This document shows, piece after piece, positions 14,476 to 52,937 of a stretch of DNA of 64,000 bases. A model generated the notes under the pieces. It made no database searches. It saw only the letters and a program-made list of their open reading frames with translations, and was not told the DNA's origin. The stretch is from Owenia fusiformis (taxonomy: Eukaryota > Annelida > Polychaeta > Sabellida > Oweniidae), in the NCBI GenBank assembly GCA_903813345.2, contig CAIIXF020000009.1, positions 19,927,759 through 19,991,758 of the forward strand. Direction: 5' to 3'. Position numbers and translations under genes: made by a program. Each line of letters opens with the position of its first letter. Position 1 is the first letter of the stretch.

Positions 14476-14521
14476 ATGTCAAAATATAGTTTACTTGGAT
14501 TTGCTACTTTAGTTACTACTG
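14476..14521 (+). CDS. Exon 1: start codon and first part of signal peptide
   Basis: ATG followed by hydrophobic codons (MSKYSLLGFATLVTT), ending at phase 1 before GTTAGT. Joining it to the next exon gives a continuous signal peptide, ...LLGFATLVTTVCMCSGG, with likely cleavage near residue 20-22. The 3.7 kb intron that follows holds a LINE copy. No other start exon was seen in this interval, but RNA evidence is lacking. Confidence 0.6.
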
Positions 14522-17500
14522 GTTAGTATATTTTTACAATTTCCTCAAGATATAAGGTAAATCAATTTAATTTGCACGATATAAATTAAAATAGGGTATT
14601 TTAAGATATTTGTAATTTTGTTAAATTCCATTTCTTTGTAAACCCAAACGTACTCATATTCACAGATATACATGATATAGGCTCCGTACAACTTGCAAAA
14701 TAATAAACATGATCTAAAGTGATTAACAAAATTAATTTATATGTTCTTCGGAGAAGATTTATATGCATAATATTCACGGATTCGATTTTTGGTGGAAATT
14801 GATTGGCTAATATCTAATCGTTGGTTATCTTGCTAATCGAAAAATCAAAAATGTCTAGGATATATATGGGGTGGGCCAGCAAAACGTTCATATTTGTAAA
14901 ATAAAATGTGGTTTGAGTAATAAACATTATGATAAGATCTCCCACCCATTTGATAAAGAAAGCTAAGATAGCTAGCCTTCTGGCATTGATAATGATGAAC
15001 GTATTGCCATTGATGACAAGCAGATACAATTTGAATATCATAAGCTTTAAACATTGTAACAGTTGTAACTTCTCTTATTCGGCGATTACAGATCAGTAGT
15101 TTTTAGTCAGAGCTTCTAATCATATTATTCATAGCAAGACGAAAAGATGTGTTAAATATCACAATGAATAGGAGGTATGTTCTCACACCTTTCACACCTT
15201 GAAAAGTTGGACGAACTCCCTTATCGTGTGTATGTGCATTTAATAGAAGAATACACCATTGTACAAACCCACGATTGTTTGAAGAGTGTAAAAGCATTGT
15301 TTTCTAATCAGAAGAAATATAGGTAAGGGTGCTTCATGTAACATGTCAATGATATAAATAAAATGGTTTCATGATAACGATAAGGAGCAATATTATAAAA
15401 CTATATGTAGAACAAATAAAAAAAATGACAATACATTGATCAGTTTGTCATCTAGATCTCCATAAAGGTGCATTTGAGAATTCTGTGTTTGTATATTACT
15501 AATTATATTGCATCAGGTAGAAATATTTGAACCATCAAGTCGAGCATCTTGATACTGGATTATGCAACTGATTCATATTTTTCCAAACCCTTCATTGACA
15601 ATAACATAATATTGTAAACTACAGTCGACAATAACATCTTATTGTAAACTGTAGTTAATTGACTATGTTCAAGCTCTTGATGATGTTTCCCAATTGCAAA
15701 TTATCCTTTTATGGTCCATTTTCTTAGATTACCAGGTCCAACCTTGCAAAGATCTGTGTTTAATAGTTCTGCGGTTTTTACAATTAATACATCTTGTATG
15801 TCGTGTGTTAATTTTATACTTTCATTAGACTAAGTAAGATAATTTTATGTTTTGCAAATTGTTGCCTATATTGTGCATTTTTATTTTGAAAATTGTTTTG
15901 ATTGATTTCAGTGGTATCTATTTTGTAATTTGCTAGATGTAATCAGAGGTAGTGTCTAAGAATGTCAAACACAATGCCATTGCAGATAACATTATTTTTA
16001 TATTGACACAATAATAATATAATAATAATAATATTTATTGACACAACCTCATGTACATGTACAGTGTGGTATCGTCAGGCTAACTAAGTATAAGGAAATA
16101 CATAGAAAAAATATATATATATATATGATACAGTGTGTACATTTTTAATATTTTACAGGTTATTGGATATGAATTTCATTATGTCAGTCATGTTTGTTTT
16201 ATAAGACATGATGTGGAGAAATTGCTGTACATCTGTCATGGAATAAAATGTTGAACATGATTTAGATATTTTTTCGAATAAGATGTTCCTTGTTACAGAA
16301 TATTTGTTACATTTCATGACAAAATGAAATTCATCTTCAATAGGTTTGTCAGAGTTGTTGCATTTAGTACAGTGACGATTTTCAAATTTGACATGTTTGC
16401 GACGTCCCTTTTCCACCTCAAGATTATGGTCACTTATACGAAGCTTTGTGAATTTTACTCTACTATATACATTTTGTGTTGAAGTTAAGTATTTTTCTAA
16501 AGTCAGTTCTGGTTTAAATTTAACATAAGTCCTTAGTTTGTTATTAAATCGTGGATTTTGACTAGATGAAGATTTTGATTTCCATTGTGATTTGATCTTT
16601 AATGATAACTTTTGCTCCACCAGTTTTATGAAACGATTCTTAGAGTTTAGGTCAGTCAATTGTATCGTATCAATATCTAAGTCAATATTATCAAGGATAT
16701 GTTTAATGTGAGTGTACCATTTACTCTTTGACTTTGTGTGAAGAAACACCTTTTTGACTAATCTCTCATCTGATAAAGTTTGAATATGAGCCCAATATTT
16801 TAACATGCTGAGTTGAATAAAGTATGACATAGGTAATCTTCCCAGTTCACCTAGAATAGCTAAGTTGCTACATGTTCTCGAGACTCCAAGGATCCATCGG
16901 CTACATTTTAGATTGATTATTTCAGTTTTTTTCCTGAAGTCAAAGTTATTAAGTATGTTAAAAGATGTGCCCCAAATTTCGCTACCATAAGTAAGAATAG
17001 GTTTGATGCATGCATCAAATAGATGTAAGATTAGCTTTATTGATTTGACATTAGCAGAATAAAGAGTGTGTTTTAGACTATTCCAAGCTTTTTGAGCTTT
17101 TAGGGCCAATTCCTGGCCAGCTAGCTTAACGCCATCTTTCGAGAATTTCAATCCCAGGTATGTGTAAGAGTCTGTGCTCTTTAGCTTTTTGCCATTATAT
17201 AGGAACTCTTTTTTGATTTCTGTACCAATTGTTATGATTTTTGATTTTTCTACATTGATAGATAGTTTCCATTTGGAACAATAATCTTGAAGTTTTATCA
17301 GATTTCTCTGCATTTCATCATGTGATGTTGAAAAAATTACGAGATCATCAGCATATAAGAGTGAGTTTATCATAAAATCTTTAGCTACTGAGATACCATG
17401 ATGCATCCCAGAGCTTAGAGTATCGACAATAATAATAACAAAGATTTTCATGGTTTATTGAATACTATATCTAGTATTTTCTGGATTCAAGTGCAGAATA

Positions 17501-20500
17501 TTTACATCATTTCTATATGATCTAGCTTTGGGTTTAACTCCTGGATTCTCGTTCTTTTTGTATTGTTTTTATGTTGAACTGGCAAACGAAATGTTGCGCT
17601 TTCAATCTTCAGCGAATAAAAATACTTATTTGAAGATTGATCCACTGATAATATTCAAGTTTCAGGGAACTCGTGTATGCCTGCTATGTTTACATGAAAT
17701 AAGTGAATAGTCCGGTAATATTAATTCCGTTTATAAATGTCACAGACTGTATTTTATTTTTAGTTAGCACAGAAAGGATCAGAAACAATAGGTTGATTGA
17801 GTCTGAAGTTATTCACATAAGAAAACATAAAAACTTCAATAGAGACATGGGCAACTTCAATTTAAACCGCTTGTGGGATGATCCCGGGGATGATGTAATA
17901 TCGCCATAGCAATTATTTGACGTTGTTCGGTTCAATGGCGTAAAAAGTAGATTTACATGTACCTTAGATGTATTTTAACTGTTTTCACTTCAAGTTTTAA
18001 TGATCATGGATGCAGTACCGTATGCATTTGAAACGTCTAAAATAAAGAAGACAGTCGGTGACAATGAACAGTAATAAACGGTACCTGTCATGTTAATTAA
18101 TTTGCCTGATGGTGAAACTCGTAACTTCCTACTCGCATCTGGGTTATCCGCTACGCGGCGACGACTTACATGCAGGTCATGATGTGTTAAATCATAAAAT
18201 CGAATAAAATTACATGTATATTGAATCATTTTTGTAGTATGTATGTGTAGCGGTGGTAGCCCAATAGACTGTAACTTTGATCAAGGATTGTGCCAAGGGT
18301 ACACTGTTACTCCAAATGACAACAGTTTCCAATGGAAAACCGAGAGTAGGAGCTTCGGAAAGTATGGTACGTCTGATAAACTAGAAATACTATTTCAACT
18401 TTTAATTCAATTCATTTAAACCCCAAGTCATTAGGCAAGCAATAGTGATACCAATTAAATATGAGCACTTTCTGTTTTAGATAGAGAATTGGCCATTTTT
18501 ACACCGAATGATTACTCATTCGACCATGGCTACGTCACCGTCCAAAACTCTGTGTGGATGCCGTTCCGCGTCCAGGCGTGTAACGACGCACATCTCGAGC
18601 TTTCTTCCGTGCCAGGTTTCTTGTTGAACCAAACATATGAGATAGTACTTGGGAGCGGGAGAAACACAAAGTCTGATATACGTGTCGGAAGACAGGTCAG
18701 TTTTAAGTAGTAATTGACATTATAATGAAAGTTGGGCAAATTGTCCAAAGGACCAGGTATAGTATGGCGACTGATTTTGGACAGCCGTGTATTTCACCAT
18801 GAGAACTTTCTCGCCATAAATACAGCTATTTTATTAAAGAAAAATGGCTTCTTTCGAGTTAAGTCCCCGTTATAAAATAGATCCGACTCTCTCAAAAATT
18901 ATGGATTACGACCCCACCTTTTCACTTTTAAAAAAATGTTAGGCTTATTTTCTCAAAAGAGGATCTTGTTTTTCTCAATTTAAATATATCAAACGTTTCT
19001 TCTCCACTATATTAAAACGTAATTTTGGTCATCTTCAAAACTAGATTTTCAATACCATTTTACTTTTGAGGAAGAATAGACCCATTGTTGAATAATATTT
19101 TCTCGCAATAAAAATCTGAAAAAGATCCTCTTAAATAGGTTCAATAATTTGAAATATGTTAACATGGTGTCCCTATTCATCATTTTTCGAATTGCTCGAT
19201 TGATATTTTTATAATTCTTGAGAATTTACTAGAAAGATAAGATATTGTGTTAATGAGAAATGTCATATTTGAATTGATATAATATTCATGATTCAAAATA
19301 TGACGGTCTAAAACCACTGCCATACTATACACGGTCCTTTAAAATGATCTAAAAGGAGACAACTGCATATAGTAATGCTTCTAAAATTGCAACCATTTTT
19401 AGAGTTTCTCTCTTCTCGTATTAAGTCTTTGCAATAATGAATCGATCGAAATGTTTTTGACTAAACAATTATAGTTTGCACTAAAACATCCTATAATATA
19501 TCATTTAGGGTAGAGGAGGTGGAGGAGTTCGTGTTAATACCCCTGATATAATGAAATGCGCCGTGATGCAACAGTTCTGGGTGAGCTGGGAGAGTGGACT
19601 CATCCAGGTTGGAAGGGGTGCAATTTATGGCCAACAGACTTTCATGTCGTGGTATGATCCCAATGCATTCCCTGTCTATGGGATAAGTGTTGCAACTGGT
19701 TGGGGCGCTACCGCCGAGTGGAGGCTCCCCCTAATGCCCGGTAAATTCTATAATACATTTACACTCCCCTCCATAAGTTTGGCAACCTTTGCTCCCCCAT
19801 TGAACTACGTGATAAAGCCTCTTTACCTTTGGATTTTTATTTACTTATCCTGCGGTGGAAATACTTAATACTATTGATTGAAACGTAATTGACTTTATTT
19901 CCAATACCTTCAAATTTTCTCAATTTTTTTCCTCAATTACAATAGGTCGAAAATTGATGATTTTGATGAATTTTTGAAAATCGACATTCCCATGTTAACA
20001 TTTTCTTCAAGCTTGAACTAAACCTCATCCTTATCAACAATTAAATGCAATCTTATAGATCATCAAACTGTCATCAGTACGCCGAATGATTACGAGTTCA
20101 ACCATGGTTGGATTCGTGTTGATGACCGCCAGGACTTCCTCTTCAGTGTACAAGCGTGTAATGATGCGCATCTTGCCCTTAGTGCTGAACCCGGTAAAGA
20201 GGATTCAGACACATATGAGATTGTTCTCTCCGGATATAGCGGGACGAGGTAATAAATGCATTATTGACGCCTGGTTTGTGAGTCACACAGCATTGGGATG
20301 CTCAATCGAATCTGATGGGACTAACCTTATTTTTATTTTTCTACCTTGAAAAAATTCCTGACAAGGCGCACACAATTTTGTTCGATTATAGATATTCACG
20401 AGTATATATACAATAAACATTTCAAGTTTTTTTTTGTTTTATTTTAAACAGGCAAATCTATGCAATTTCTTATGAAACCTTTTAGATCTGATATTCGTGA

Positions 20501-23500
20501 CGCGAAACAAGGAACAGTTCGTGCAAGTGCAAACACACGAAACTTCCTCAGTTGTAACGAAACGAGGCCTTTCTGGGTGAGCTGGAGAAATGCTTACATC
20601 GAAGTGGGAAGAGGATATATAATTGGTCAAAACCGGTTCATGACATGGCTAGATCCTGTTCCACATCCCGTAAATGCTATATCTTTTGCAACGGGATGGG
20701 GATCAAGTGCAAAATGGTCAATTTATGAAGAACAAGGTAAATCAACTGCTTTCATTGTAAAGTATAGTCCAGTTTAATAATCTCATTAGTAGAATATATA
20801 TAGGGAGCAGCAATATGAAAGTCAAGAGAACGATACATTAGATCGACATCTGAATTTTGTATTTTGTAAAATGAAATGCACACTCGGGAATACATACTAA
20901 ATATTCGAAATATTCCTTTACTATTGTAGGTCGACCGGTAACAATATATACACCGAATGACTATAACTTCGTGCACGGTTGGATAACAACGTATGGTCTA
21001 AATCAGATAGTGTTTGAAATCGAAGCATGCAGCGATGCCCATATACAATTACCACTCGATCCTACAAACACTGCTGTAGATGTATACGAAGTAGTCCTAG
21101 GAGGCTGGGCAAATACACAATCAGCCATCAGGGACAGAAAAATGGGAGAACTAAAGACTCAGGCTGCGACTCCAAACATCTTAAACTGTGACGAATTTAG
21201 GAAGTTTTGGATAAGCTGGAAAGGTGGTTTGATACAGGTTGGAACGGGCTCATTGTACGGTATCAACCGTATCATGTCGTGGCAAGACCCAGCTCCTCAT
21301 CTTGTAAATGCTGTGAGCGTTGCAACGGGATTTGGTCATGAGGCGATATGGAGATTACCGGTTTTTCCAGGTACTATTTTCGCTATACTAGCGATAAATC
21401 CTACTGTAGTAGTAGGATTTATCAAGTCCTTGACAACAGAAACAAGTCCCATAAATATGTCGTGTCCTAATATAGAATCGTAGTATCCCAAAAAGAAAAA
21501 CATGGTACGAATTGTATTAGTATTAAAGAGATATTGTGTCAAGGCTAGTTTCCCAACATGAACATATATCAATTACAGGTCGAGAAACCCATATAATGAC
21601 ACCAAATGACTATATCTATAACCATGCCTGGACACCTGTGCACGACCTCCAATACAAAGTATTTAGAGTAAAGGGGTGTAATGATGTTCACGTTGCTCTT
21701 ATGGCCACACCTGGACGGGATGAATCAGCCATGTACGAGATCGTCATCGGGGGCTGGGGAAACACTCAGTCGGTAATCAGAAACAAGAAACAGGGCCGGA
21801 ATCTCTTTACGGCGAAAACAAAGAACTTCCTTAATTGTGAAGATTTTAGATCATTTTGGGTGGGCTGGAAAGATAACAAGATTGAAGTCGGAAGAGGCTT
21901 GGTGTACGGGCAGCAGAGATTCATGATTTGGGCAAGACTAAACACGTACCAATTCAAAGCATTGTCGGTCAGCACAGGGTGGGGTAGCACTGGAGAATGG
22001 GTATTCTTTGAGCAATCTGGTAAGTATTACGGAAAGCATACAGGGTGATCTACTAAAAATGCAACCCATGAATCGAATAGACGTAACATTCATCCACATT
22101 GTGAAAACTTCTAGATAAAGACTATATATTTCTTGATATAAGTCGATTTCTTCGTTACCGAGGCGTTCATAATAATTTATCATTGCCAATTTCTAGGGCG
22201 TCTGAACTATATGAAGCCACGGAACGATCATACTGCAGCAGGTGGGAGAGAAATGGCAATTTACACCCCAAATGACTATAACTTCAAGCATGGGTGGTTT
22301 TCTGTTCAAAACACCAATCACATTGTCCTTAAAATACAGGCGTGCAATGATGCACACATTGCCCTAATGACTACTCCCGGGGTTGATTCGGCAGACACGT
22401 ATGAAATTGTAATCGGAGGTTGGAGAAATACGAAAACAGTTCTCAGACCTTCCAAGGGAGGAAAGCCAATGGCAACTGCCCTTACGAGGGACATTCTGAG
22501 CTGTGACGAGCTGCGTTCGTTTTGGATTAGTTGGTATGATAAGTCTATTGAAATTGGAAGTGGAAACGTGTATGGAATGAACAGGATTATATATTATCCA
22601 GATCCTAATTTCCATGATGTGAATGCGATATCTTACGCGACAGGTTGGGGAAGTAGCGCCGAGTGGAGACTCACTGTTAGCGAAGGTATGGTTATCGCTT
22701 TGAAGTGGTCTTTATATAGCCCAGTTGTCACTGTAGATTGAAATGGACATTGTTCGTAAAACATTCTCACGAAGACGGCTTCTTTTTTGGCGTTCTTCCG
22801 ATTCACTAAGATAAACAACATTTTCATCTGAGTATGTATGTCAATCATGTTAGCTATGCAAGATTATTCAATAGGAAATCAATGCGTTGATCATCCGTGG
22901 GATCATGAATGAGCTGTATAGTATGTTTTAATATGCAACAATGAAAGACATTTAATTAATCATTTACCAGGTATGAGTGCTGCTATTCTTACACCGAACG
23001 ACTACTCTAATAAGCACGGATGGGTAAAAGTACATGATGTGACATCTATTAACATCCAAGTGAAGGCTTGCAATGATGCTCACATTTATCTAATGGCAAC
23101 TGCCGGGATAGATACTGAGCTCACGTATGAAATTGTCCTCAGTGGATGGGGAGGTACCAAGTCTGTCATACGCGACGCTAAACAAGTATGTTTTCCTGAT
23201 AGTAACAGATTCATATACTCTACTCGGTCTAGAATTATCTAGGGATAGACTTTATATGTCAAAGTTAGAATGATGTATTTGAAATTTCAGAGTACAATAC
23301 GTGAAAAATAAAATATAAATATAGCAAATATAGCAATTTTGGGTCAAAATGTACTGTATACATTTGAATGAACTTTACAACACATGTATAGTAACAACCT
23401 AAAATAATTTAAAAAGAGATATCAAATACTATGTTTGAACAGGGCAATATAATGGCTGAAGCAGACACTACAGGTTATTTGGATTGTGATTCGCTCCGGA

Positions 23501-26500
23501 ATTTCTGGGTGTCTTGGACAGATGGGTGGATTAAGGTTGGAAAGGGATTTGACGGTCAGAATGAGTTCTTGGGCTGGCAACACATAAATCCACGGGTGAT
23601 ATCAGCGGTGGCTTTTGCATCCGGATATGGCGCTGCGGCGGAATGGAGATTTGTAGAACCACAAGGTTTGAGTGTTTTATTTTATGCCAATAAAGCGGGA
23701 AGCGTTATCTTTTTATATTTAAAACCATATTTGAAGCGTCATTGGTACCTGACTATCAAGATCCCCGTTTCGTTGAAATACATTGTGTGCCCTATTTGGT
23801 AATAATCATGGCAAGATATGTATGCAGAGTTCATATAGATGAACCATGTGTTGCGTACCAAGACATGAAGAATTTAATGTGCTCGAATGAGATACATTCA
23901 TATGCCACATGAATGCCAACATGAATGCTGTAGAAGACGCGATCATTTTAGATCGTGTTGTCAAAATTCACAATAACAGATCTGCTCATTGACATTTGTA
24001 ATGTGAAATTGTATGAAAGACGATATTCAATGTGTTTCATCAGCAAAAGTAGCTCTCAATCTGTAAATAGTCCTTATTTCACATTACTCAGACTTAAGAA
24101 TATTTGTTTTATTATTTATGAATATTTTATCGTCATATCTTATTACAACTTATTTCTAATTTTCATGGCATTTAGTTCATAGAAACACTTTTATGTGCCA
24201 TTTTGAATGGCAGGGGAATCATAAAAACTTGGATATACGATTGTTATTCTCTCTCGCAGCAGACATAACGTGTTTGCCGTAACATGATTCAATGGCATTC
24301 CCATGTATTCATGTTGTTTATTATAGCCAGTTCAATGAAACATTTTGACCATTTTAGGGAGAGTAACCTCTATAAAGACAATAAATGACTATTATTTCAA
24401 ACACGGTTGGGTGTCGACACAGGAGACTACCTTCATGCCATTTCAAATACAGGCATGTAATGATGGTCATATCCAGCTTCAAGGTATTATCGGAGATATT
24501 ACTCAGCAAACCTACGAAATTGTGCTGGGAGGAAATCGAAATCGAAACTCGATGATTCGAGCTAAATCACGTGGTCCAGATATGATCCGTGTCAAGACAG
24601 ACCAGTTCCTTAATTGTACGGAAATGAGACCATTTTGGGTATCGTGGGCAAATGGTAATATTGAAGTTGGTAGAGGATTTGTGTATGGTATGGATAGATT
24701 CATGGCATGGCAAGACCCCAGTCCTCATCCAGTCAATGCACTTTCGTTTGCTACTGGCTGGGGCAGCACTGCTGAGTGGAGGATCCCAACAGCTCCAGGT
24801 AAAAGAAAATACCATGTAAATGGTCTTTGATGAGACCGGCAGTTTCATTTCTTACATCTTGCAGGTAGAATTTTTTATGAAAAAAATGTCTCGTGGTATA
24901 GAATAATGGTTTCTGAAAGGATAAGAACGGGGTGTTAGATACTGGGATTTTCGGGTTTGTTCTTTATGATGCTTTTTTTACATTATTATTCAATCCCCTT
25001 TGAAATTGTAAAACGTTACAGCATTCTATCATATTACAAAATGGTTTGGTTTATATTGGCTATAAGAGTATTTTCATAACCTTTTCTTTATAATTTTCTT
25101 TATAATCATTCCATTCCTTCTGCATACTAGGTCATTCCACTCAAATTATGACTCCTAATGACTATAAATTCGAACATGGATGGATGGATGTCCGTGACAG
25201 AGTTGGACAAACATTCCGGGTACAGGCTTGCAATGATGCTCATCTGGCCCTGACAGAAGTCAAACAAGATGGAACTGGGAGAATTTATGAGGTCCACCAA
25301 TCATTGCTTAGTTCAAATATCAAATTATGAACCCTTTTTAATCATGCTTATCTGAAGCAAACACTTTAATCGACAAAGCTAAATGATTAATTTCCAGACA
25401 GTTTACCAAACTGTTATTGGTCGTGATTGGCAACATTATGAAGCCGGTGGTCTTCAATTTTAATATAACTATAATCAACTCGTTCAAGGAGTTTTGTTCC
25501 TGAATGATACATACACATACATAATAATACATACGTATATAGTACAGAATCTTGATACATTTTCAAAGAATGGTGTAACATTGTGAGCGTATGTTCGGTG
25601 CACAGCTTATTATGTCAATGGCATTAGCAAAATTGAATCTGTTAAACCACGGTGTCGAATCAATTTCAGCTTGTCCTTGGGTCTTATGCGAACCAGAAAA
25701 CCAACATCAGAGACTGCAAATCGTGTGGTGACAAGGCTATAGTCGACACTCCTGATATTATGCAATGTAACCAAACTTTAGACTTTTGGGTGAGATGGGA
25801 CTCAGGTTTGATAGAGATGGGAAGAGGAAATGTATTTGGCGTGGATAGAATTATATTTTGGCAGGACCCAAATCCGCACAGGGTTGACATAGTTTCTGTT
25901 TCCACTGGTTGGGGATCGACCGCAATTTGGGCATTTGACGAACCAGCGGGTAAACAGCAATACTAATTTTTTGAGTTCCTAAAGTTTGAAAAAAGAGACA
26001 CATACAGTGTATCATCGATTTTAAAGCAAAACTCTTATGCGTTATACAGTTAATGGTATATATTTTCACTTTAGGACAATATGCCTATGCAGATGTTAAT
26101 TATGGTACAAGCAGTGACACTAGTAACCTTGTTTCACCAACGCTTCCGCCTAACAGTCTCGACTGCCTAGAAGCATATTATCACATCCAGGTACACAAGG
26201 GAATTTTCAGATTTCACATTCAGATAAACAAGTACTTTCTTGTGTTGGAAGCTTGATTAGTGGTGTGTTCGTTAATTCGTTATGTGCGTTTACAATTTTA
26301 GGATCCCAACAGCGGTTCCCTTAACGTGAGGTTTTCTGAGGCCGGGGGTCAAGTAATAATCGACGAAAAACGTCTCCCTGCCTCTGCTACGGATGGTTGG
26401 AATCACGCCCTCGTCCCTGTAAATTCAAATGGACAAAGTTTTCAGATCATATTTGCGGCTATGCACGGATATGGTTCAAAGGGGTATATATCAGTTGATG

Positions 26501-29500
26501 ATGTCCGACTACTGGCAGGGCAATGTTCATTTTATGGTAAGATAATGATTACGCCATGACCAACTTTTTAACCGTAGTCTGAATAGCCTAGCTTTCCTAG
26601 TATAAGTCTCAAGGCTGAAACATGTACATAGCTCAAACATTTAAATAGAGAGAAATGTATTTCTTGTATGATGATACAATCAATGAAACGTGGTATAATG
26701 TTGGTACATTGTACTTGTATATTATACTTGTATACTATAAAGTGTAACTTATTTCATAATATTGTCATGCATTAATTTTAGATACCAACAAAACGACGAT
26801 GCCAGTCAATATTCTGCCAACCCCTCAACCAGACCCAACAACTACAACAAGAGCTCCAGTCGTTACGCTACCACCCCCAGTCCCACCAGCGTCTCCTACA
26901 GCTGGAGATTGCAATTTTGAGGAGGGAACTTGCGGATACACTGTTAACCCCTGGGAATCAAATAAATATCATTTCGAAAAGGAAGATGGCGGTGCCCTCT
27001 TTGCGGGTATGCGTCACGGTTTTCTAAAATGCCACATTTTTCATAAGTAAAGTCATTGACCTTGTTATAGCTAAGTCGGGGACCATTATGTTTTGGAATT
27101 GTTCTTTGTTCTTTCCCGTTTCTCTCCCCTTTTTATTTGTGCTTCTATATATCGATGTGTCTATTTGACATACCGAATTAACAACTTGAACTAGGATATG
27201 TATGTAATACTTTTATAAGGCATACTCAATTTGATGGCAGGTAAAAAGATGGCGATCTACACACCGAATGACTACGACTTCAAGCACGGTTGGGTGACAG
27301 TTACTGGGTATGACTATATTGAATTTACGGTAAAGGCCTGCAATGATGCCCATATCTTGCTGTCTAATATCCCAGGTGAAATAGATGAGTTGGTCATTCA
27401 GGTCATCATTGGTGGGTGGAAAAATACAAAGAGCGCCATCCGAACGGGAAGAACAGTCGGGACACCTATAGTAAAACAAACAAACACCCCAAATATTCTT
27501 GATTGCAACGAGGCTAGAAGCTTCTGGTTGAGTTGGAAGAATGGTCGGATTAGGGTTGGTCAGCATGGGCTCTACCAGGATCAGTTCTTACAATGGTCCC
27601 AGCCCCGGAATAACCCAATCAACTCTATATCTGTCGCCACTGGTTGGGGTAGCTGGGGAGATTGGAGACTACCAGTTTTGATGGGTACAGTAATAATAAT
27701 ATAATAATATAAATATCTAATGACCTTCAATAACTTAAATTATATGAAACGATGCTATTTGACGCATACAAAATATACATACAATACAGACATTAGTTAA
27801 AATAATAGGAACTTAAGCTTGGGATTCATTCTCGATTATTTGAAGCCTTTGTATTTTCATTATATTTTCATGAAACGTTTAGAACGTTAGCGCTATAGCC
27901 CGCGTGCGTTTTATGAAAATGGATTTGAAATGGCTGTCCAGTCCGCCTGTTTTACCATAGTCGGTTATACCAATAATGTTGTAAACATTCTAATTGTAGG
28001 ACAAAGCAGCACGCTATTTACTCCTAATGACTATGCATTCAGCCATGGCTATTTGGAGGTGGACGACAAAACGTGGATGATATTCGACGTCCAGGCCTGT
28101 AGTGATGCACATTTAGCATTGGCTGCAACATCTGACGACTTTAGTAAAAACACTTATGAAATTGTGATTGGGGGATGGAGTGGTACGAAGTCTGTTATAA
28201 GGGACGCGAGAGGGGGTGGCGTCATGGCTGAGGCTGAGACTTTAGATATTGTAACCTGTGAAGAGTTCAGGTCATTCTGGGTAAGCTGGAAGAACGGCCT
28301 TATTGAGGTCGGAAAAGGCAAGACACATGGCGTAGGACGCTTTATGTTCTGGACAGACCCAAATGCACATGTTGTGAAGGCACTAAGTTTAGCTACAGGA
28401 TGGGGCAGTAGAGGAAAATGGACATTATATCATCCAATAGGTATCGGATATTATATAAAGTTTTTTTTCCAGAAACGTCTAATCTGTATTTTAGCCATTA
28501 TTAGTAAAGAAATGAAAAGATGAATACTGTTCATTTGAAATATTCAAATGATATGCATCGTTTTCAAGGCCGAGAGGTAAGGATTCAAACTCCGAATGAC
28601 TACAGGTTTGATCATGGGTATGTGACGGTCGGAAGTTCTACAAGCTTACTGTTTAATGTGAAAACTTGTAACGACGCTCACTTGGAACTCCTAGAGAGGC
28701 CGAACCTCATTGATTGCAATGTTTATGAAATTGTCATTGGTGAGTATATCGTTTATTAATTTGAATACCATATTAACATCAGGTTTTTACGACAAAATGT
28801 TCCCGCGAACAATGAATCAGTACCAATCAGTTACATTAATATGCAATCCAATGTTTTTCAATGAATCTTTTTCTAAACAAACGATTGTAAATTGTATTGC
28901 TAATGCATCGGCCTATTTGTGTATTACATGAAATTGTTGCCATAGGATGCTGTGGTGGTAGAGGAACGAGTATAAGAAATAGGCGTCTAGGGCCAAACAA
29001 ACAATCTGCGTGGACCCCGAATGTACTAGCGTGTAATGAAACCAGACCATTTTGGGTTAGTTGGGACGGAGGCGTAATAGCTGTTGGGGAGGGAAGTCTT
29101 GTGGGCGTGAATGGCATCATTGCATGGAAGGACCCAGATCCACATGGGGTGAAGGCGGTTGCGTTTGCTTCATGGAGTACGGCCTCGGCTGAATGGTCTG
29201 TCCAGTTGTTACCTGGTAAGTGATGCACCTGATCAGCATGCTGTCTTCTCTTCTCTTATTCTTTATGCTTTGCAATCATAACATACACAAATGTTTCTGG
29301 AAATTACATTTACAAGTCGCATACCAAAACAAGTCTCCATTAATTCCCGTTTAAGGTCAAACCTCAGTGGTTAACACTCCGAATGACTACACGTTCAACC
29401 ATGGCTGGGTAGGAGTTCAAGATCGTACAAGTGCAGTATTTGACGTCCAGGCGTGCAACGACGCCCACTTGGCACTTTCAACGGAACCAGGGAATGGCGA

Positions 29501-32500
29501 TGTGAACACGTATGAAATAGTTATAGGGGGATGGGACGGTACAAAATCTGCAATAAGGGAGTCAAAGCAAGGACAAACTGTGGTATTTGTAGACACTCCT
29601 GATATACTTAACTGTAATGTATCAAGAACATTCTGGGTAAGTGTACATTTCATTTTGATTTCAAAAAGTAGTTTGTGTTTGTACAAATAACTTGAAAAGT
29701 ATCTTACAGTGAGGATAGTACGGTCCCTTAGATATAGAATCGTTATTATATATAACACGTGACTGAGCAAAAAATCTGCAATTATTAGATAAATTGGCGC
29801 TTATTTGTTCATGTTCGTGTACTGGACAAAATAAGTAATTGATTATGGCTCGAGATTTGAGAACACTTGATAATGTGAAATTCCGAGCAAAGCTCGTTCC
29901 AGTATTTTAATACATTCGCTCTTGATTGAGTTATTTCATGTTCCTGTTGTTACATTATTATTTTTTACCTTTAGGTGTCGTGGCTCAATGGCGCAATCAA
30001 TGTGGGGCGCGGGCCAGTGGTTGGAATGAACTCGTTTATGTCGTGGACTGATTCCGATCCTTATGTTGTCAATGTTATATCTGTAGCCACTGGCTGGGGC
30101 AGCTCTGCCATTTGGAAATTCCAACAGGATCTGCGTAAGATTTGTGTTAAAGCAATCTGAAGTAGAAACACCTGATTTTAGAAAGTGTAGATGTTTGAAA
30201 TTGAGGAGGCATGATTGGGCAATGGGTCATATATTTACTTATATTGTGTCTACATATGTTATTTATTAATCGTTGTGCGTTTCAGCTGCACTTGTTGATG
30301 TTGTAAGGCCAATACAGGATCATACTTCGCTGTCATGTAAGCATATTCCCCTCAAACTTATAAGTTATTGAATGATTTGAAGTGCAATATAGGATTCATA
30401 TATTCAGCTCTGTATTGGAGACGAAGTTGAGTGCCAATACAGAATATCGACATGGAATATATCCTGCATTGAACTTCGAATCATTAAATAACGTTTGACG
30501 TGTGACCTTAGGCAAAACATTTACTTACTAAGGAGATAATCCCTAAGAAATACTCTGTATTCTCTGTATTGCTACTGAGATTGTCCCCGCCCCCGTACCA
30601 ATATTTTCTGTATTGCTACTGCGATGATCAATGGAGACAATTCCAGTACCCATACAAATCGGTACAGCACAAGAACTGACCAATCAGAGGGCTTCATCAT
30701 ACAATAACATTTCTTATTCTCATTTGGCATAATACTAAGCGTACTTCAAATGAATCTTGTATTAGAATATCATCACATTGGATTATTTGGAAGTTGCTTA
30801 TTTCATCCACATGATTGCAAGAATCGAATGTATTGTAGCCCATGAAGTCCAAATAAACACGCCAAATGACTACAATTTCAAACATGGCTGGGTTGCTACG
30901 GGAGATACAAAGTTCTTTACTTTCGCTGTCCAAGCCTGTAGTGACGCCCATCTAGAACTCCAAGCTACCCCTGGAGATACAGATAACCTCAATTATGAGA
31001 TAGTAATTGGTGGCTGGAGTAACACGCAGTCAGTTATCAGGACACGCAAGATGGGACCTAACGTAGCAGTTTTCCAGACGCCAAACCTATTGAGCTGTAG
31101 TGCGTTCCATCTGTTTTGGTTGAGCTGGGCCGGCGGTGTAATTGAAGTAGGAACCGGATCCTCGTATGGGGCTGGAAGGTTTCTAGGGTGGCAAGATCCT
31201 AACCCACATGCCGTGACTGCCATATCTATGACGACTGGCTATGGTAGCAACGGAGTGTGGCGGTTTCTACACTCATCAGGTGTGAATAATACGACATATT
31301 ATAGATAGTTATATATAGCCATCCTTCGATTCTATTTCTTAATAAATAAAGAACGAAAGAAAACAAAAGTTTTCATTAGGCTTATATAAATATATATCTA
31401 ATTATCTATCCGTGGCATGCATAGCATATTATTATTATATTATTTATTTCCAATTACAGATAAGAGTGTGCTCATCAATACTCCTAATGATTATGAATTC
31501 GTTCACGGCTATATGAACGTCCACGACCGAGTTGGAGTTCAGTTTGAAATTCAGGCATGTAACGACGCTCATATTGCATTAGAGTCCAAACCTAGTGTGG
31601 TTGGTGTACCACAAGCGTACGAAATCGTATTAGGAGGATGGTCAAATACCAGGAGTGTTATAAGAGATGGTAAACAAGGGACAGAGAAGGTAACGGTCGA
31701 CACACCAAACTTGTTGAACTGCACTGTTTTCTTACCTTTTTGGGTAACTTGGCAAAATGGCATAATTAGAGTCGGGAAGGGGTTCTCTTACGGCAGAAAC
31801 TTACTAATGGAGTGGCAGGATACCACCCCTAAACCGGTCACTGTGATCTCCGTAGCAACTGGTTGGGGGAGCACAGCTAACTGGAACTTCAGGGAACCGA
31901 CAGGTGAAATGATTCATCTTTTTTGTTGAATTATCTTTTAAAATTACTCTTCCAAAGCTTCTTAACAGCATAGCAGCATAGATAGGATACCTCAATCATT
32001 GAGTCAATGCACCTATTATTTTATACCATGAAGTCATGTGTCAATATGTTTTTTTATGAAGGGCGTGAAGTACGAATCATGACTCCAAATGACTACAACT
32101 TTAATCATGGCATGCTGAAACAGACAGGGACCCACATGATATTTAAGGTGATGGCATGCAACGATGCCCATATTGAACTCCAGGAAGACACGATAAGAAA
32201 TAGGGAGAATGTTTATGAAATTGTTTTGAGTGGTTATGGGGGAAGTCGCTCAGATATTCGTACGGGGAGAGGTGGTCCCGCTATGTCATATGCACCGACT
32301 AGTGGGTTTTTAAGCTGCACAGAATTTAAATCATTTTGGATAGGGTGGGAAAATGGCTTCATTCAAGTTGGACAAGGCACTGTATTTGGTGCAAACAGAT
32401 TTATGGCTTGGCAGGATCCAACACCACACCAGGTGAACATCATTACATTCGCTACAGGATGGGGAGCAACTGGAGTTTGGTCTGTCTCACTTCCACCAGG

Positions 32501-34603
32501 TATCAGATTTTGATGCATTGTTTGCGTCATTCCGATATACATTTAAACCATGTACTTTTGCTGGTATCTCATTCATATGGATTCGGAACTATGAATAGCA
32601 AATGTTAATCAATATGAGATGAAGTATCTGTAGTTGGTTTGAATGATGCATTCGTTGTAGTTTAACGAAGTTTTGAAAAACAATGCCTGAAAGGTCGTTT
32701 ATTCAATATTTTTGATGTTTTATGTATCTTACCCGCAATTATTGTTTTAATTATTGCGATTCTATGCGACTAGTATTAACTACATATTACCAAAAAATAA
32801 AGATTCGACACTTCGAAAATACAACAAAATATATATTTTATTATACAGCTGGTCTTGTTGATATATTGACGCCTAATGATTACAAATTTGAACATGGTTG
32901 GCTTATGGTGTCTGATCGCACATGGATGCCCGTACAAATCAAAGCTTGCAATGACGCGCATTTTGCTCTATCGGCGCAGCCAGGAGATGGAACTGTTGAA
33001 ACGTATGAGATCGTACTTGGCGGGTACTCTAACCAGAAGTCAGATATAAGGGCGGTCAAACAAGGTCCTCCGATGAATCAAGCTGAAACCCCTGATCTGA
33101 TGAAGTGTGATCTGACGCTTACTTTCTGGGTCAGTTGGAAGGGTGGTTTGATTGAGGTTGGACATGGGGGTGTGTACGGGAAAAATAGATTCCTCAACTG
33201 GCAAGATCCGAACCCGCATCCTGTCAATGCCTTCTCTGTGGCCACGGGGTGGGGGAGCACCGGCATGTTTAGATTCAAGGAATCCCCAGGTATATTATGA
33301 CTGGCAATGAAAAATCAAACTGAGATAATGGCACAAATTCAAAATCAGGAAAATATTGGTTAAGATAAACAGCTAACAGATAAATAATAATTTTTATTAT
33401 TTGAAGAGATTGAGCAGTTATGTTAAGTTAAAAATATTTTTTTCCTTTTGTCTGTATTTATTATTTTGAATTTAGGCTCCTATATGATCGCCGACTCTGT
33501 AGTTGGCACAACACGTGATACAGCCATTCTAACATCACCACCGATCTCACCAATGTCTTTGGCCTGTGCCGAAGTATATATTATGTTAAGTGGTACTGAT
33601 ATTGGCGAATTCAAAATGGGATATGGGTATCCTGGAGACTCAACTCCCCAATGGCAAATTATGACTGGTCCATTTCAGACAGGTGGACAATGGATCCCAA
33701 TAAGGATGGCCATAGATCAAAGAAGAGAATTTCAGGTATATACACAGTGCATAACATGCATCAAATGTAACTATTTATTGTAACAAATTCCACTCATATT
33801 TTTTGATAGACAGATTAAAAGTAAGTTTGATCGACAATTTAAAAGTAAAATCGGGGAATACTCGTTTGATCACTGCTACCATTTTGATTTTTATCTGTAA
33901 AATGTCCTTTTGATAACGTTTACAATTGTATTTTGCGTTTTAGCTTATGTTCCTTGCAGCGGAGGGTCTTGGGTATAGCGCGACAATTGCGATTGACGAC
34001 ATTAAGATCTATAACGAGCTTTGCTTTACATACGTGAACCCTATGCCGACCCCCGGTACACTGTCCACTCCTGCATTCACAGGAACAACGACAAAATTCA
34101 CACTTCCCGTACAGACAACCACGAAAGGACGTTTCACATTACCTCCACTGGTAACTACACGCCGGCCGATATTTACATTCCCACCAAGGACAACATCAAA
34201 ATTTACAATCCCACCAAGGACAACATCGAGATTCACATTCCCTCCGTGGACCTGGAAGCCCGTAACCACTCGTCCCTGGTCTCCGGTCAGCACCCCAGGA
34301 AGAATCAGTGGAACGCAGACTCCCAAGACATCGGTGAACGCAGCTGCTATCGTGATACCAATACTAATAGTACTGATTATTGCAGCCATTGCAATTTTTA
34401 TATTCTCTAAAAAACGAAAGGGCGAAGATTGGAAAGAAAGTATCAAAAAAATTTACAACAGGAATCCTTCTCACCAACGATTTGATAATCCGAACTCAGT
34501 AAATTATTCTCAAGGTGGGGGTGTTGGTGGATTAGATAACCCAACATACGGGACAGGTTCAAGTAGTGTATCCGGACTTCCTTCCACAAAGAGTGAAGCT
34601 TAG
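14476..34603 (+). CDS. Giant receptor-like protein: two MAM domains, each split by eight FAMeT modules, plus a TM helix
   Basis: Thirty coding exons with matching phases total 8,832 nt (2,943 residues): 14476-14521, 18238-18366, 18481-18695, 19509-19740, 20059-20248, 20486-20736, 20930-21370, 21579-22019, 22197-22685, 22971-23185, 23443-23665, 24358-24798, 25131-25291, 25670-25949, 26075-26190, 26302-26536, 26782-27006, 27241-27684, 28000-28440, 28569-28739, 28946-29215, 29356-29636, 29975-30134, 30286-30336, 30839-31279, 31460-31903, 32062-32499, 32849-33289, 33476-33735, 33944-34603. Order: signal peptide (1-20), MAM1 N half (27-58), FAMeT 1-8 (59-1251), MAM1 C half (1252-1368), linker, MAM2 N half (1412-1443), FAMeT 9-16 (1444-2637, with a 17-residue spacer), MAM2 C half (2638-2751), Pro/Thr stalk, TM (2857-2878), NPTY tail. 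MAM domains act in adhesion. Methyltransf_FA modules are named after a crustacean enzyme, and I see no SAM-binding motif. The likely role is surface binding or adhesion. Exon 1 is the least certain exon. Confidence 0.85.
16014..17451 (-). mobile_element. 5'-truncated LINE retrotransposon with partial RT ORF
   Basis: An uninterrupted frame (17451 to 16153, 432 codons) begins just before the RT catalytic LLYADDLVIF motif (YADD at residues 33-36) and runs through the thumb and C-terminal region. It ends with a C-x2-C...H-x4-C segment (CTKCNN ... DEFHFVMKC). The 3' end on this strand is an ATT-repeat tail (plus-strand TAATAATAATAATATTT near 16020). RT fingers, endonuclease and ORF1 are missing, so this is a dead 5'-truncated copy. 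It sits in intron 1 of the MAM/FAMeT gene, in antisense orientation. Confidence 0.85.
18093..18180. repeat. SINE-like fragment shared with 55.39 kb
   Basis: TGGTGAAACTCGTAACTTCCTACTCGCATCTGGGTTAT-CGC matches TGGCGAAACTGGTAACTACC followed by TACTCGCATCTGAGTAATTGCC at 55397-55440 (about 35 of 42 positions by eye). It ends roughly 60 bases upstream of exon 2 of the MAM/FAMeT gene. Confidence 0.4.
18238..18366 (+). CDS. Exon 2: end of signal peptide and N-terminal half of MAM 1
   Basis: After the signal peptide the exon encodes CNFDQGLCQGYTVTPNDNSF followed by Q-W-K-T-E-S-R-S-F-G. This is the typical MAM start, with the first two conserved cysteines and the F-x-W motif. It stops at phase 1 where an ordinary MAM domain would continue toward its G-x-Y-x-Y-V strand. 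That continuation is found only at 26075. Confidence 0.8.
18481..19740 (+). CDS. FAMeT module 1 (two exons)
   Basis: Exons 18481-18695 and 19509-19740, intron phase 0 after the R-x-G-R-Q position. Landmarks are FTPNDYSFDHGYV, QACNDAH, TYEIVLG, FWVSWESGLIQVGRG and ATGWGATAEWR. The intron has the same position and phase as that of module 6. The 813-bp intron holds nothing recognised. Confidence 0.85.
20059..20736 (+). CDS. FAMeT module 2 (two exons)
   Basis: Exons 20059-20248 and 20486-20736, joined in phase 2 inside the G-T-R-S-D-I-R-D motif. Landmarks are STPNDYEFNHGWIRV, QACNDAHLAL, YEIVLSGY, FWVSWRNAYIEVGRG and ATGWGSSAKW. The phase-2 intron position is unique among the sixteen modules. 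Confidence 0.85.
20930..21370 (+). CDS. FAMeT module 3 (single 441-nt exon)
   Basis: A complete phase 1-1 module. Landmarks are YTPNDYNFVHGWITT, EACSDAHIQL (Ser in place of Asn), YEVVLGGWANTQSAIRD, ILNCDEFRKFWISW, DPAPHLVNAVSVATGFGH. Confidence 0.9.
21579..22019 (+). CDS. FAMeT module 4 (single 441-nt exon)
   Basis: A complete phase 1-1 module: MTPNDYIYNHAW (Ala for the usual Gly), KGCNDVHVAL, YEIVIGGWGNTQSVIRN, FLNCEDFRSFWVGW, STGWGSTGEW. It is followed by GTAAGT. Confidence 0.9.
22197..22685 (+). CDS. FAMeT module 5 (single exon, two possible acceptors)
   Basis: The module has YTPNDYNFKHGWFSV, QACNDAHIAL, YEIVIGGWRNTKTVLR, ILSCDELRSFWISW and ATGWGSSAEWR. Two in-frame acceptors are available: TTTCTAG before 22197 and GCAGCAG before 22242. 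The second matches the usual module start (G-R-E just before the TPNDY strand) and would make the protein 15 residues shorter. Alternative use is possible. Confidence 0.85.
22971..23665 (+). CDS. FAMeT module 6 (two exons)
   Basis: Exons 22971-23185 and 23443-23665, phase-0 intron after R-D-A-K-Q, exactly as in module 1. Landmarks are LTPNDYSNKHGWVKV, KACNDAH, YEIVLSGWGGTKSVIRD, FWVSWTDGWIKVGKG. The W-x-D-P-x-P-H motif is degenerate (W-Q-H-I-N-P-R) and the last donor is a weak GTTTGA. Confidence 0.8.
24358..24798 (+). CDS. FAMeT module 7 (single 441-nt exon)
   Basis: A complete phase 1-1 module in which TPNDY has become TINDY and ACNDAH is ACNDGH. The rest is typical: YEIVLGGNRNRNSMIRA, FLNCTEMRPFWVSW, QDPSPHPVNALSFATGWG. 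Confidence 0.9.
25131..25949 (+). CDS. FAMeT module 8 (two exons), last before MAM 1 resumes
   Basis: Exons 25131-25291 and 25670-25949, phase-0 intron directly after I-Y-E. Landmarks are MTPNDYKFEHGWMDV, QACNDAHLAL, LVLGSYANQKTNIRD and TPDIMQCNQTLDFWVRW. It carries two extra cysteines (DCKSCGD) not found in the other modules. The donor GTCCAC is non-ideal. Confidence 0.75.
26075..26536 (+). CDS. C-terminal half of MAM 1 (two exons)
   Basis: Exons 26075-26190 and 26302-26536. They encode Q-Y-A-Y-A-D, then LVSPTLPPNSLDCLEAYYHI (third MAM cysteine) and DPNSGSLNVRFSEAGG, then SFQIIFAAMHGYGSKGYISV, DDVRLLAGQC (fourth cysteine). This is the classical second part of a MAM domain, resuming after eight FAMeT modules. 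Confidence 0.85.
26782..27006 (+). CDS. Pro/Thr linker and N-terminal half of MAM 2
   Basis: A 43-residue Pro/Thr-rich linker (QPDPTTTTRAP, LPPPVPPASP) is followed by CNFEEGTCGYTV and the F-E-K-E-D-G-G strand. It ends in phase 1 at the same MAM position where MAM 1 is interrupted, and the next exon is again a FAMeT module. Confidence 0.8.
27241..27684 (+). CDS. FAMeT module 9 (single 444-nt exon)
   Basis: The first module of the second array: YTPNDYDFKHGWVTV, KACNDAHILL, IIGGWKNTKSAIRTGR, ILDCNEARSFWLSW, ATGWGSWGDWR. It lacks the W-x-D-P motif (W-S-Q-P-R-N). Confidence 0.9.
28000..28440 (+). CDS. FAMeT module 10 (single 441-nt exon)
   Basis: FTPNDYAFSHGYLEV, QACSDAHLAL, YEIVIGGWSGTKSVIRDARG, FRSFWVSWKNGLIEVGKG, ATGWGSRGKW. 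Phase 1-1. Confidence 0.9.
28569..29215 (+). CDS. FAMeT module 11 (two exons)
   Basis: Exons 28569-28739 and 28946-29215, with an intron of phase 1 right after YEIVIG. Landmarks are QTPNDYRFDHGYVTV, KTCNDAHLEL, then CCGGRGTSIRNRRLG and FWVSWDGGVIAVGEG. The ATGWG motif is replaced by A-S-W-S-T-A. It is the most diverged module of the second array. Confidence 0.8.
29356..30134 (+). CDS. FAMeT module 12 (two exons)
   Basis: Exons 29356-29636 and 29975-30134, with a phase-0 intron splitting F-W from V-S-W. Landmarks are NTPNDYTFNHGWVGV, QACNDAHLAL, YEIVIGGWDGTKSAIRE, ILNCNVSRTFW, ATGWGSSAIW. Confidence 0.85.
30286..30336 (+). CDS. 51-nt spacer exon between modules 12 and 13
   Basis: A phase 1-1 micro-exon between TTTCAG and GTAAGC encoding ALVDVVRPIQDHTSLS. 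It keeps the frame and could be skipped without harm. Module 16 also opens with the similar A/G-L-V-D motif, which suggests this is a trimmed module start. Confidence 0.5.
30839..31279 (+). CDS. FAMeT module 13 (single 441-nt exon)
   Basis: NTPNDYNFKHGWVAT, QACSDAHLEL, YEIVIGGWSNTQSVIRTRK, LLSCSAFHLFWLSW, QDPNPHAVTAISMTTGYG. Phase 1-1. Confidence 0.9.
31460..31903 (+). CDS. FAMeT module 14 (single 444-nt exon)
   Basis: NTPNDYEFVHGYMNV, QACNDAHIAL, YEIVLGGWSNTRSVIRD, LLNCTVFLPFWVTW, ATGWGSTANW. Phase 1-1. Confidence 0.9.
32062..32499 (+). CDS. FAMeT module 15 (single 438-nt exon)
   Basis: MTPNDYNFNHGMLKQ, MACNDAHIEL, YEIVLSGYGGSRSDIR, FLSCTEFKSFWIGW, ATGWGATGVW. Phase 1-1, one codon shorter than most. 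Confidence 0.9.
32849..33289 (+). CDS. FAMeT module 16 (single 441-nt exon)
   Basis: LTPNDYKFEHGWLMV, KACNDAHFAL, YEIVLGGYSNQKSDIR, FWVSWKGGLIEVGHG, ATGWGSTGMF. Phase 1-1; the next exon resumes MAM 2. Confidence 0.9.
33476..34603 (+). CDS. C half of MAM 2, Pro/Thr stalk, TM helix and NPTY tail (two exons)
   Basis: Exons 33476-33735 and 33944-34603. The MAM part shows ILTSPPISPMSLACAEVY (third cysteine), Q-W-I-P-I-R, MFLAAEGLGYSATIAIDDIK and NELC (fourth cysteine). A stalk follows of about 100 residues with repeated FTLPP/FTFPP-RTTS units, likely O-glycosylated. The TM helix is AAAIVIPILIVLIIAAIAIF, followed by the stop-transfer KKRK. The 65-residue tail contains NPTY, a motif bound by PTB-domain or endocytic adaptors in other receptors. 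The stop is TAG at 34601. Confidence 0.85.
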
Positions 34604-35001: not shown

Positions 35002-35422
35002 TTGGAACAATTACTTTTTGATAAATCTCGTTTCTAGAATCTAAGTTTACTTTCGAAATCGTAATATCGATGTCATTTGTGAATTCTACAAAGCAATACA
35101 GAAGAGCTATAATACATCAATTCTAAGAAATTGTAATACAATGGTTGGAAGCCATCATTGTGGCTATACTGTTATGTCATTTATTCGTATGTGTTATCAA
35201 CTTGCAATTTAAATAACATTTTATGGAGGGGCTGGCCATACCTGTAGTTACAAATTATTATTAATGAGAATTTACCGAGTAATTGTTGTAATTTACCGAA
35301 TAAGTTTTGTCTTCCATTTTCATTTGTTTTGAATTTACAAAGTTACAAGTCACAGGTTTTTATATGATTTATTTCCTAATTAAACAGTCTTCACCACAAA
35401 CCACACAACATAATATCACATA

Positions 35423-36390
35423 TACAGGGTGACCCAAAAAATGCAACCCTCCATTTCTTCAATATTTTTCTTAAATGGAACTTAATTGCTCTGCAATTTG
35501 GCACACAAGGACTTCATTCAATGTGGGATCCTCTGGCAAAGTTTCGATAATCAAAGTCTTATATTGAGAGAGTTATGGTCGTTCCAAAATATGCTCCAAA
35601 TGTCGTCCATTTCCAATGTTAGGTTTTCCGATAAATCACATTCTCTTCTTTCTGAACATGTAAACTCAAGAAATAATGTGTTCTGGGATCACAAATTCCG
35701 GATGAAGTGCTTCAAAGGCCCCTTCATTCTGTTATATGCACAGCTTGGGCTGCCAATTTCCAAACATGAAATCATCAGCCCCTTTTGGTTTGAGGTTGAT
35801 AATGGCAACACTGTTACTGTTAACACACAGCGCAATATTGGCGTTCCCAGGAAGTTCTAGGCAGTTCTAGAGTGACATAGAGGCTTCAATAGACAAGAAC
35901 AGTGGTTCTAGAAGGATGGAACTACTCCTCACACTTCTAATGATAGCATAGCCTGGCTCACTAGTCATTTCTATGAGAAGATTATCTCTCCTAGGACGGA
36001 GAACCCATGGTCATCTCACAGTCTTGATCTCAATGCCCCTGACTTCTATATATGGGGTTATGTAAAGGATAATGTGTATGAAAATAACCCTTCCGCAATT
36101 GCAGAACCCCAACAAGCAATGGCTGCAAAGCTTTGAGCCTTACCCATGAGGAAGAATGCATCCGTGTTATGAACAGTTTTCCTTGAACATTGCAAGTTTG
36201 TTTTCAGAGAAATTGACGACATCTTGAGCATATTTTGAAACAACCATAACTCTATCAATACAAGACTATGATTATTAAAACTTTGCCAGATGATCCCACA
36301 TTGAATGAAGTCCTTGTGTGCCAAATCTTTACCTGCATTTAAGAAAAATATTGAAGAAATGGAGGGTTGTATTTTTTGGGTCACCCTGTA
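35423..36390 (+). mobile_element. Decayed mariner-type DNA transposon
   Basis: The inverted ends TACAGGGTGACCCAAAAAAT and ATTTTTTGGGTCACCCTGTA flank 970 bases, with about 60 bases of inverted match continuing through the CCATTTCTTCAATATTTTTCT region. Transposase remnants on + occur in several frames: ISPFWFEVDNGNTVTVN near 35775; W-F-stop-K-D-G-T-T-P-H-T near 35913, a decayed W-F-Q-x-D-G-A-x-P-H motif; and SLDLNAPDFYIWGYVKDNVY near 36020. Stops and frameshifts make it inactive. Confidence 0.85.
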
Positions 36391-52600: not shown

Positions 52601-52937
52601 CATAGCGCATTATCATATCATGGTCTTGAAAATAAACATTTACGGGCAAAATGTTCTGGGTGTATAGAATGTATATTGAAATTGTCCAGTGGCACTGTAT
52701 TTTCTATTGACTAGTTATTCTGTTGTGTGTGCAGTCAAGGATGTTGTATCCGATTATACAACCTCGGTAGTTATGACAAAACAGTACAAACGAAAAAAAC
52801 GCCATAAAGAGAGCCTCCACGCCCATATAAATATGAACAAGTCTAATCCGTGAGTATAAATTCTGTGCTATACGTAGCCAAAACGGGAGGACACTTTAAG
52901 ATAGGAAAATAACTATGTACTATGTACATAGGTACAT

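Follow-up and report, generated by a model that had tools for sequence, protein, structure and literature searches.

A putative three-piece MAM domain interrupted by arrays of FAMeT modules in a receptor-like protein of the annelid Owenia fusiformis

In a window of 64,000 nucleotides (nt) from Owenia fusiformis (contig CAIIXF020000009.1, positions 19,927,759 to 19,991,758, forward strand), we analyzed a gene at positions 14476-34603 of the + strand, which encodes a protein of 2,943 amino acids (aa), here P0103. This protein is probably a type I transmembrane receptor-like protein with two tandem units, in each of which the jelly-roll of a MAM domain would be interrupted at two surface loops, in the order MAM-a, four FAMeT modules, MAM-b with the motif DHT, four FAMeT modules, and MAM-c. 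We directly observe the reading frame and its splice signals, the number of modules, a better fit of the MAM profile to three pieces than to two, and an alternating A/B relatedness of the modules. Judging from profile coordinates, the position of the second interruption (site 2) is common to Owenia, amphioxus, and cnidarian proteins.

Probable three-piece MAM domains

The Owenia MAM domains (MAM1 and MAM2) were compared with a profile built from 150 pattern-cut domains (150 of 222) of 11 other animal proteins, from which P0103 and the amphioxus protein P0105 were excluded. The profile matched MAM1 at positions 1-26 and 40-157 and MAM2 at positions 1-24 and 41-157. When joined, pieces a and c scored 78.6 (MAM1) and 67.1 bits (MAM2) versus 66.4 and 55.9 bits for the C parts alone, and shuffles of the N part reached the joined score in 0 of 1,000 (MAM1) and 3 of 1,000 cases (MAM2). 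Of 461 array segments slid into the N slot, two scored higher than the native N part in MAM1 and two in MAM2, the two top MAM1 segments being the central spacers described below. The MAM starts with cysteines 1-2 that an earlier note on this DNA had placed in 18238-18366 and at the end of 26782-27006 coincide with the two best matches of an N-half profile (independent E values of 1.3e-4 and 1.2e-3), and the continuations, which lie at 26075-26536 and 33476-34024, with the four exons giving the four C-half matches below E 0.1. Across 2,803 stop-free stretches scanned in six frames, no other MAM was found in the window, the next N-half match having an E value of 0.49. Both copies carry two pairs of cysteines (CNFDQGLC and DCLEAYY..GQC in MAM1; CNFEEGTC and ACAEVYI..NELC in MAM2), but the pieces are not continuous, being set apart by arrays of ~590 residues. 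These arrays contain 16 stretches matching PF12248 (FAMeT, or Methyltransf_FA; E = 0, 1,586.6 bits for the whole protein), that is, the eight modules between each start and continuation that the earlier note had counted. On the whole protein, Pfam finds two MAM stretches (PF00629, 1.2e-33), the best of which is the C-terminal part of MAM1, starting at profile position 40.

Piece a alone scores weakly (5.4 and 5.2 bits), in keeping with the idea that the MAM fragments are degenerate leftovers, with piece c folding alone and pieces a and b unpaired. We consider this distinctly unlikely, as both copies retain cysteines 1-2, the DHT motif, the core of the C part, and cysteines 3-4, and the N pieces of split MAMs in other animals (see below) also argue against it. 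Pairing could also be permuted, with MAM1 piece c joining MAM2 piece a across the linker. The swapped joins (X12, 68.1 bits; X21, 77.6 bits) score about equal to the regular ones, and thus the sequence cannot discriminate this pairing. MAM1-a and MAM2-c, however, would then have no partner, and the pieces in amphioxus flank a single insert, which makes this pairing extremely improbable.

A spacer fitting a third MAM fragment, overlooked in the earlier note, divides each array into two groups of four modules (4|4). The sequence of both spacers (22197-22241 and a mini-exon at 30286-30336) contains P..DHT, the motif that MAM domains show at profile positions 34-39 and that is absent from the N pieces, and DHT is found nowhere else in P0103. 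While 12 of the 14 array junctions span 2-6 residues, the remaining two are long, with 18 and 21 residues, and in each array the long junction falls exactly where module four meets module five. Among 2,353 array positions, the spacer windows ranked first in MAM1 (101.8 and 100.8 bits; best unrelated, 96.3) as well as in MAM2 (84.5 and 84.3 bits; best unrelated, 81.7), and with the spacer kept in place none of 1,000 shuffles of the N piece scored as high in either MAM. With Pfam PF00629 (cut-off 26.4), the trimmed spacer gave 97.7 bits in MAM1 versus 78.5 without it, and 69.5 versus 60.5 bits in MAM2, in both cases over positions 1-157/158. Four other junction pieces used as filler gave 85.7-89.6 bits in MAM1, where every filler raised the score, and 59.4-61.4 bits in MAM2. 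Besides, the match of MAM2 to neuropilin-1 (NRP1) improved from E 0.017 to 1.8e-5 with the spacer. Taken from the sequence, these results favor two insertion sites per MAM with four modules each, separated by a DHT fragment of 14-17 residues. The proposal of the earlier note that the array is inserted in one MAM loop thus holds in so far as FAMeT modules lie inside each MAM, also because P0105 has a FAMeT in a MAM at the same loop, but a single loop with eight modules is not supported. The one long projecting arm proposed there would give way to two loops of four modules each, as every array would have to return to the MAM at both ends.

Several observations weigh against this architecture. 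The untrimmed spacer of MAM1 was equalled by 64 of 1,000 of its own shuffles and by 33 of 2,353 windows, and that of MAM2 by 4 of 1,000 and 19 of 2,353 (spacer windows included in both cases), and a single spacer scanned alone was not significant (E 0.35-0.52, negative bits). The match of MAM2 to PTPRK, which has no DHT in the aligned stretch, worsened with the spacer from 6.2e-4 to 3.3e-3. The flanking cysteines are absent from all 16 Owenia modules, the glutamate of the NRP1 calcium site (E651) is Asn in both Owenia MAMs, and the exon model rests on genomic sequence and deposited annotation. The behavior of the spacers when scanned alone or shuffled, the gain in MAM1 from any filler, and the fact that the two-piece joined MAM already spans the profile would fit a single insertion per MAM, with eight modules in one loop and the DHT spacers as plain linkers. 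This is nevertheless unlikely, considering that both spacers share P..DHT, with DHT unique in the protein, at the same place between modules 4 and 5, that they rank first among all windows and score above the four other junction pieces in MAM1 as well as in MAM2, and that they fill the profile gap at ~27-41.

The same MAM loop in other animals

Among 233 proteins fetched in searches limited by length, FAMeT was detected in 142 and MAM in 93, and both only in P0103 and P0105 (Branchiostoma lanceolatum); the remaining 140 of the 142 FAMeT proteins gave no MAM match. The MALRD1-like P0105 has one FAMeT inside a MAM, after DHT and before GYY, between profile positions 41 and 43, with flanks scoring 44.0 and 120.1 bits with the 150-domain profile; in Pfam, the joined MAM reached 144.2 bits versus 34.1 and 99.5 for its parts. 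P0105 has one module at one site within a MAM/LDLa chain of 5,074 aa, and a second FAMeT between MAMs, while in P0103 four modules sit at either site of both MAMs, and at E 0.01 only PF12248 and PF00629 are found, with no match to the LDLa repeats expected of a MALRD protein. P0105 also contains a doubled MAM stretch (residues 3717-3918; profile 1-83, then 44-157), which looks as if the prediction had joined in an exon that is duplicated or alternative.

The 2,294 MAM matches in the 93 proteins included 25 complementary splits, of which 14 break at profile 40-46/39-44 (site 2) with inserts of at least 53 aa. All 14 inserts were matched in Pfam, namely to ricin-B lectin (seven, of which those of P0144 and P0146 fall below the Pfam cut-off), FN2 (six, one with WSC), and FAMeT (one). 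The hosts are P0105 and seven MALRD-like proteins (P0140, P0141, P0144-P0148), the four named being Hydractinia, Hydra, Nematostella, and Pocillopora; the latter seven share with Owenia the identical loop as insertion point, but their inserts are Ricin_B_lectin, fn2, or fn2 with WSC. The cnidarian cases were probably inherited from few events. The N pieces scored 35-49 bits in 13 of the 14 splits (15.7 in the remaining one), and thus interrupted MAMs are maintained, which speaks against degenerate leftovers also in Owenia. In ordinary MAMs, site 2 is a short stretch of variable length between DHT and GYY, with positions 42 and 43 missing in 17 of 150 domains, and the MAMs of neuropilin-1, RPTP, and meprin, although of the same family, are continuous. 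The first Owenia site (profile 26/27) was not seen as an insertion point in the other proteins scanned.

The other 11 splits were not counted as site-2 insertions. They comprise P0147 (27-aa gap, 47/36, near site 2), P0159 (40-aa gap, 29/43), five that in our judgement resemble prediction artefacts or retained introns, and four tunicate splits in another loop, whose inserts gave two FN2 stretches, no match, and no match for the 31-residue piece scanned, the fourth lying outside the Pfam scan. In the sea squirt proteins P0190 and P0197, the MAM is split at this different loop (profile ~81-88), with two FN2 stretches in one insert, making it a possible third insertion point. Among the matches listed from open-licence PMC papers we found no description of a FAMeT within a MAM or of a split MAM, and the listed papers that were checked contain no MAM domain.

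History of the FAMeT modules

The 16 modules (M1-M16) share 33-57% pairwise identity. Ten of them are uninterrupted exon stretches of 438-444 nt and six have an internal intron, the position of which is, by eye, common to M1 and M6 only. The similarity within odd and even module types was reached by 4 of 6,435 partitions based on identity and by 2 of 6,435 based on BLOSUM. In a FastTree analysis of 74 domains (the 16 modules and 58 others, with six each kept from P0227 and P0104), the seven odd modules other than M5 grouped together (support 0.852). The split holding the 16 Owenia modules alone had a support of 0.062, and their common origin is accordingly no more than possible. The relatedness of each module to the one eight positions further on was reached by 551 of 40,320 permutations (402 by BLOSUM), a likeness that weakly supports a duplication of the whole unit. 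Relatedness by slot within blocks of four was not significant (598 of 5,000 shuffles reached the observed value). A phase-1 intron lies at seven of the eight MAM/array borders and none at the eighth (spacer/M5). We consider it likely that phase 1-1 module exons entered phase-1 introns within the MAM, that an A-B pair of modules was then amplified, and that the entire unit was finally duplicated.

Possible metal site, module fold, and function

For the MAM of NRP1, the crystal structure report (PMC5104691) gives E651, D685, N691, and D796 as Ca2+ ligands, the bound ion tying the N-terminal region to the first and last strands. Along the NRP1 alignment (offset 627), D685 corresponds to the Asp of DHT and D796 to the first Asp of VDD, and both are kept in the Owenia MAMs. 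NRP2, with Asn at the Glu site and also lacking the DHT-site Asp, is unlikely to bind calcium according to the same report. With both Asp residues kept and E651 replaced by Asn, piece b could pin the two array loops by metal or by packing.

The FAMeT module is predicted from model comparison to have a lectin-type fold, a beta-sandwich like that of galectins and CBM66; the likeness concerns the overall fold only, with 8% identity in the best rows. A PDB sequence search with M5 gave no match below E 0.67, and no lectin assignment for FAMeT was found among the 10 literature matches listed of 1,210 from open-licence PMC papers, none of which mentions Methyltransf_FA. The title of a paper in the reference list of PMC9358689 describes a Methyltransf_FA protein of oyster haemocytes as "exhibiting microbe binding activity". 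The NPTY motif in the tail of P0103 may be a link to endocytosis or the cytoskeleton. We tentatively propose, at somewhat less than even confidence, that P0103 is a multivalent receptor for glycans, microbes, or matrix, perhaps endocytic through NPTY.

In the proposed architecture, the three MAM pieces would reassemble into a single hub. Each four-module array would start and end at this hub and form a closed loop, an arrangement that is feasible provided that the first and last FAMeT strands are neighbors. Between the two arrays, the DHT fragment would return to the metal site of the MAM, pinning both loops, while the two hubs on the Thr/Pro stalk would hold the surface formed by 16 lectin-fold modules, multivalent for glycans, microbes, or matrix, and the tail would connect the protein to endocytosis or the cytoskeleton.

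The FAMeT module occurs, sometimes repeated, in CPAMD8, arthropod FAMeT, sea-star footprint, and mollusc shell proteins. Earlier papers state that a methyltransferase activity of FAMeT has never been reliably demonstrated in vitro and that its function is unclear (PMC10015273), and that its role in sea-star footprint proteins and mollusc shell-repair genes is unknown (PMC9382459, PMC8194122). Long arrays were also seen in the predicted protein P0227 of Dimorphilus gyrociliatus (7,356 aa, 40 FAMeT domains, no MAM match) and in P0104 of Lingula anatina (3,814 aa, 14 FAMeT modules with long acidic-looking linkers between them, no MAM). Another Owenia protein, P0003, combines trypsin, thrombospondin type 1, three FAMeT, C-type lectin, and fibrinogen domains in one chain.

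Gene model and locus

The conceptual translation of the 30-exon model, which joins in a single frame of 8,832 nt as previously noted, is identical letter for letter to the deposited P0103 (an unnamed product, or "MAM domain-containing protein"). All 29 introns are GT-AG, with 22 in phase 1, six in phase 0, and one in phase 2. The protein runs from a signal-peptide-like start through the MAM1 pieces and FAMeT arrays, a Thr/Pro linker, the MAM2 pieces and FAMeT arrays, and a Thr/Pro stalk to a transmembrane segment and tail (Table 1). A gene finder, whose codon table came from seed stretches of the same gene, returned 67 exons, many of them spurious, at a low exon penalty, 36 at a penalty of -8, and 29 at -12, and chose both DHT spacers at two penalty settings, one seed overlapping the first spacer by 17 nt. 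A hand-trimmed exon model without both spacers was rejected by comparison with P0103 and by the sliding control. The reliance on genomic sequence and annotation, and a first intron of 3.7 kb holding a frame with a partial reverse-transcriptase match, leave room for an artefact in which two genes or isoforms were joined and real transcripts end within an array. With canonical introns throughout one frame, an identical deposited annotation, the spacers picked by the gene finder, and the independent nested MAM of amphioxus, we regard this as very improbable.

The frame in intron 1 lies on the minus strand (16153-17454; RVT_1, 44.7 bits). A minus-strand open frame of 636 aa at 50707-52617 has a reverse-transcriptase domain (115.3 bits) and is likely a LINE-type element, and pieces resembling, by eye, a broken mariner/Tc1-type transposase lie directly 3' of the gene (~35380-36440, + strand).

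Table 1. Features of the P0103 gene, in positions of the window
Feature	Position	Strand	Basis
Exon 1: start codon and most of signal-peptide-like segment MSKYSLLGFATLVTT	14476-14521	+	translation = P0103
Exon 2: remaining signal-peptide-like segment and MAM1 piece a (MAM profile 1-26, cysteines 1-2)	18238-18366	+	profile match
Array 1A: FAMeT M1-M4	18481-22019 (18481-19740, 20059-20736, 20930-21370, 21579-22019)	+	PF12248
MAM1 piece b: spacer RLNYMKPRNDHTAA, MAM profile ~27-41; first 45 nt of M5 exon	22197-22241	+	profile fit; in P0103
Array 1B: FAMeT M5-M8	22242-25949 (22242-22685, 22971-23665, 24358-24798, 25131-25949)	+	PF12248
MAM1 piece c: profile 40-157, cysteines 3-4	26075-26536 (exons 26075-26190, 26302-26536)	+	profile match
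Thr/Pro-rich linker between the two MAM units	26782-26909	+	sequence
MAM2 piece a: profile 1-24	26910-27006	+	profile match
Array 2A: FAMeT M9-M12	27241-30134 (27241-27684, 28000-28440, 28569-29215, 29356-30134)	+	PF12248
MAM2 piece b: 51-nt phase 1-1 mini-exon, ALVDVVRPIQDHTSLSS	30286-30336	+	profile fit; hexamer PIQDHT identical to neuropilin-1
Array 2B: FAMeT M13-M16	30839-33289 (30839-31279, 31460-31903, 32062-32499, 32849-33289)	+	PF12248
MAM2 piece c: profile 41-157	33476-34024 (exon 33476-33735 and start of exon 33944-34603)	+	profile match
Thr/Pro-rich stalk	34025-34339	+	sequence
Transmembrane segment AAAIVIPILIVLIIAAIAIFIF	34340-34405	+	judged by eye
Cytoplasmic tail, 65 residues, with NPTY (LDNPTYG) and FDNP motif; stop codon 34601-34603	34406-34603	+	sequence

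Implications

The inserts amount to ~1,180 residues per MAM host of ~160, more than seven times the host. Considering that one cut point also takes lectin-type and other small modules in other animals, the MAM fold may serve as a socket. We are slightly inclined to see it as a general socket fold, whose loop after DHT repeatedly took modules (FAMeT in a chordate and an annelid, ricin-B and FN2 in cnidarians), with Owenia adding a second socket at ~26/27 and a hub of three pieces, perhaps pinned by metal, that closes two loops of four lectin-fold modules. If this is true, the MAM domain, commonly pictured as a bead on a string, becomes a hub. Profile scans under-read proteins of this kind, as with P0103, where the best of the two Pfam stretches lacks the beginning of the profile. 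The recurrent loop would provide a testable rule for where exon insertion can add domains to an adhesion fold, and FAMeT, a module of obscure function, gains a predicted lectin-type fold.
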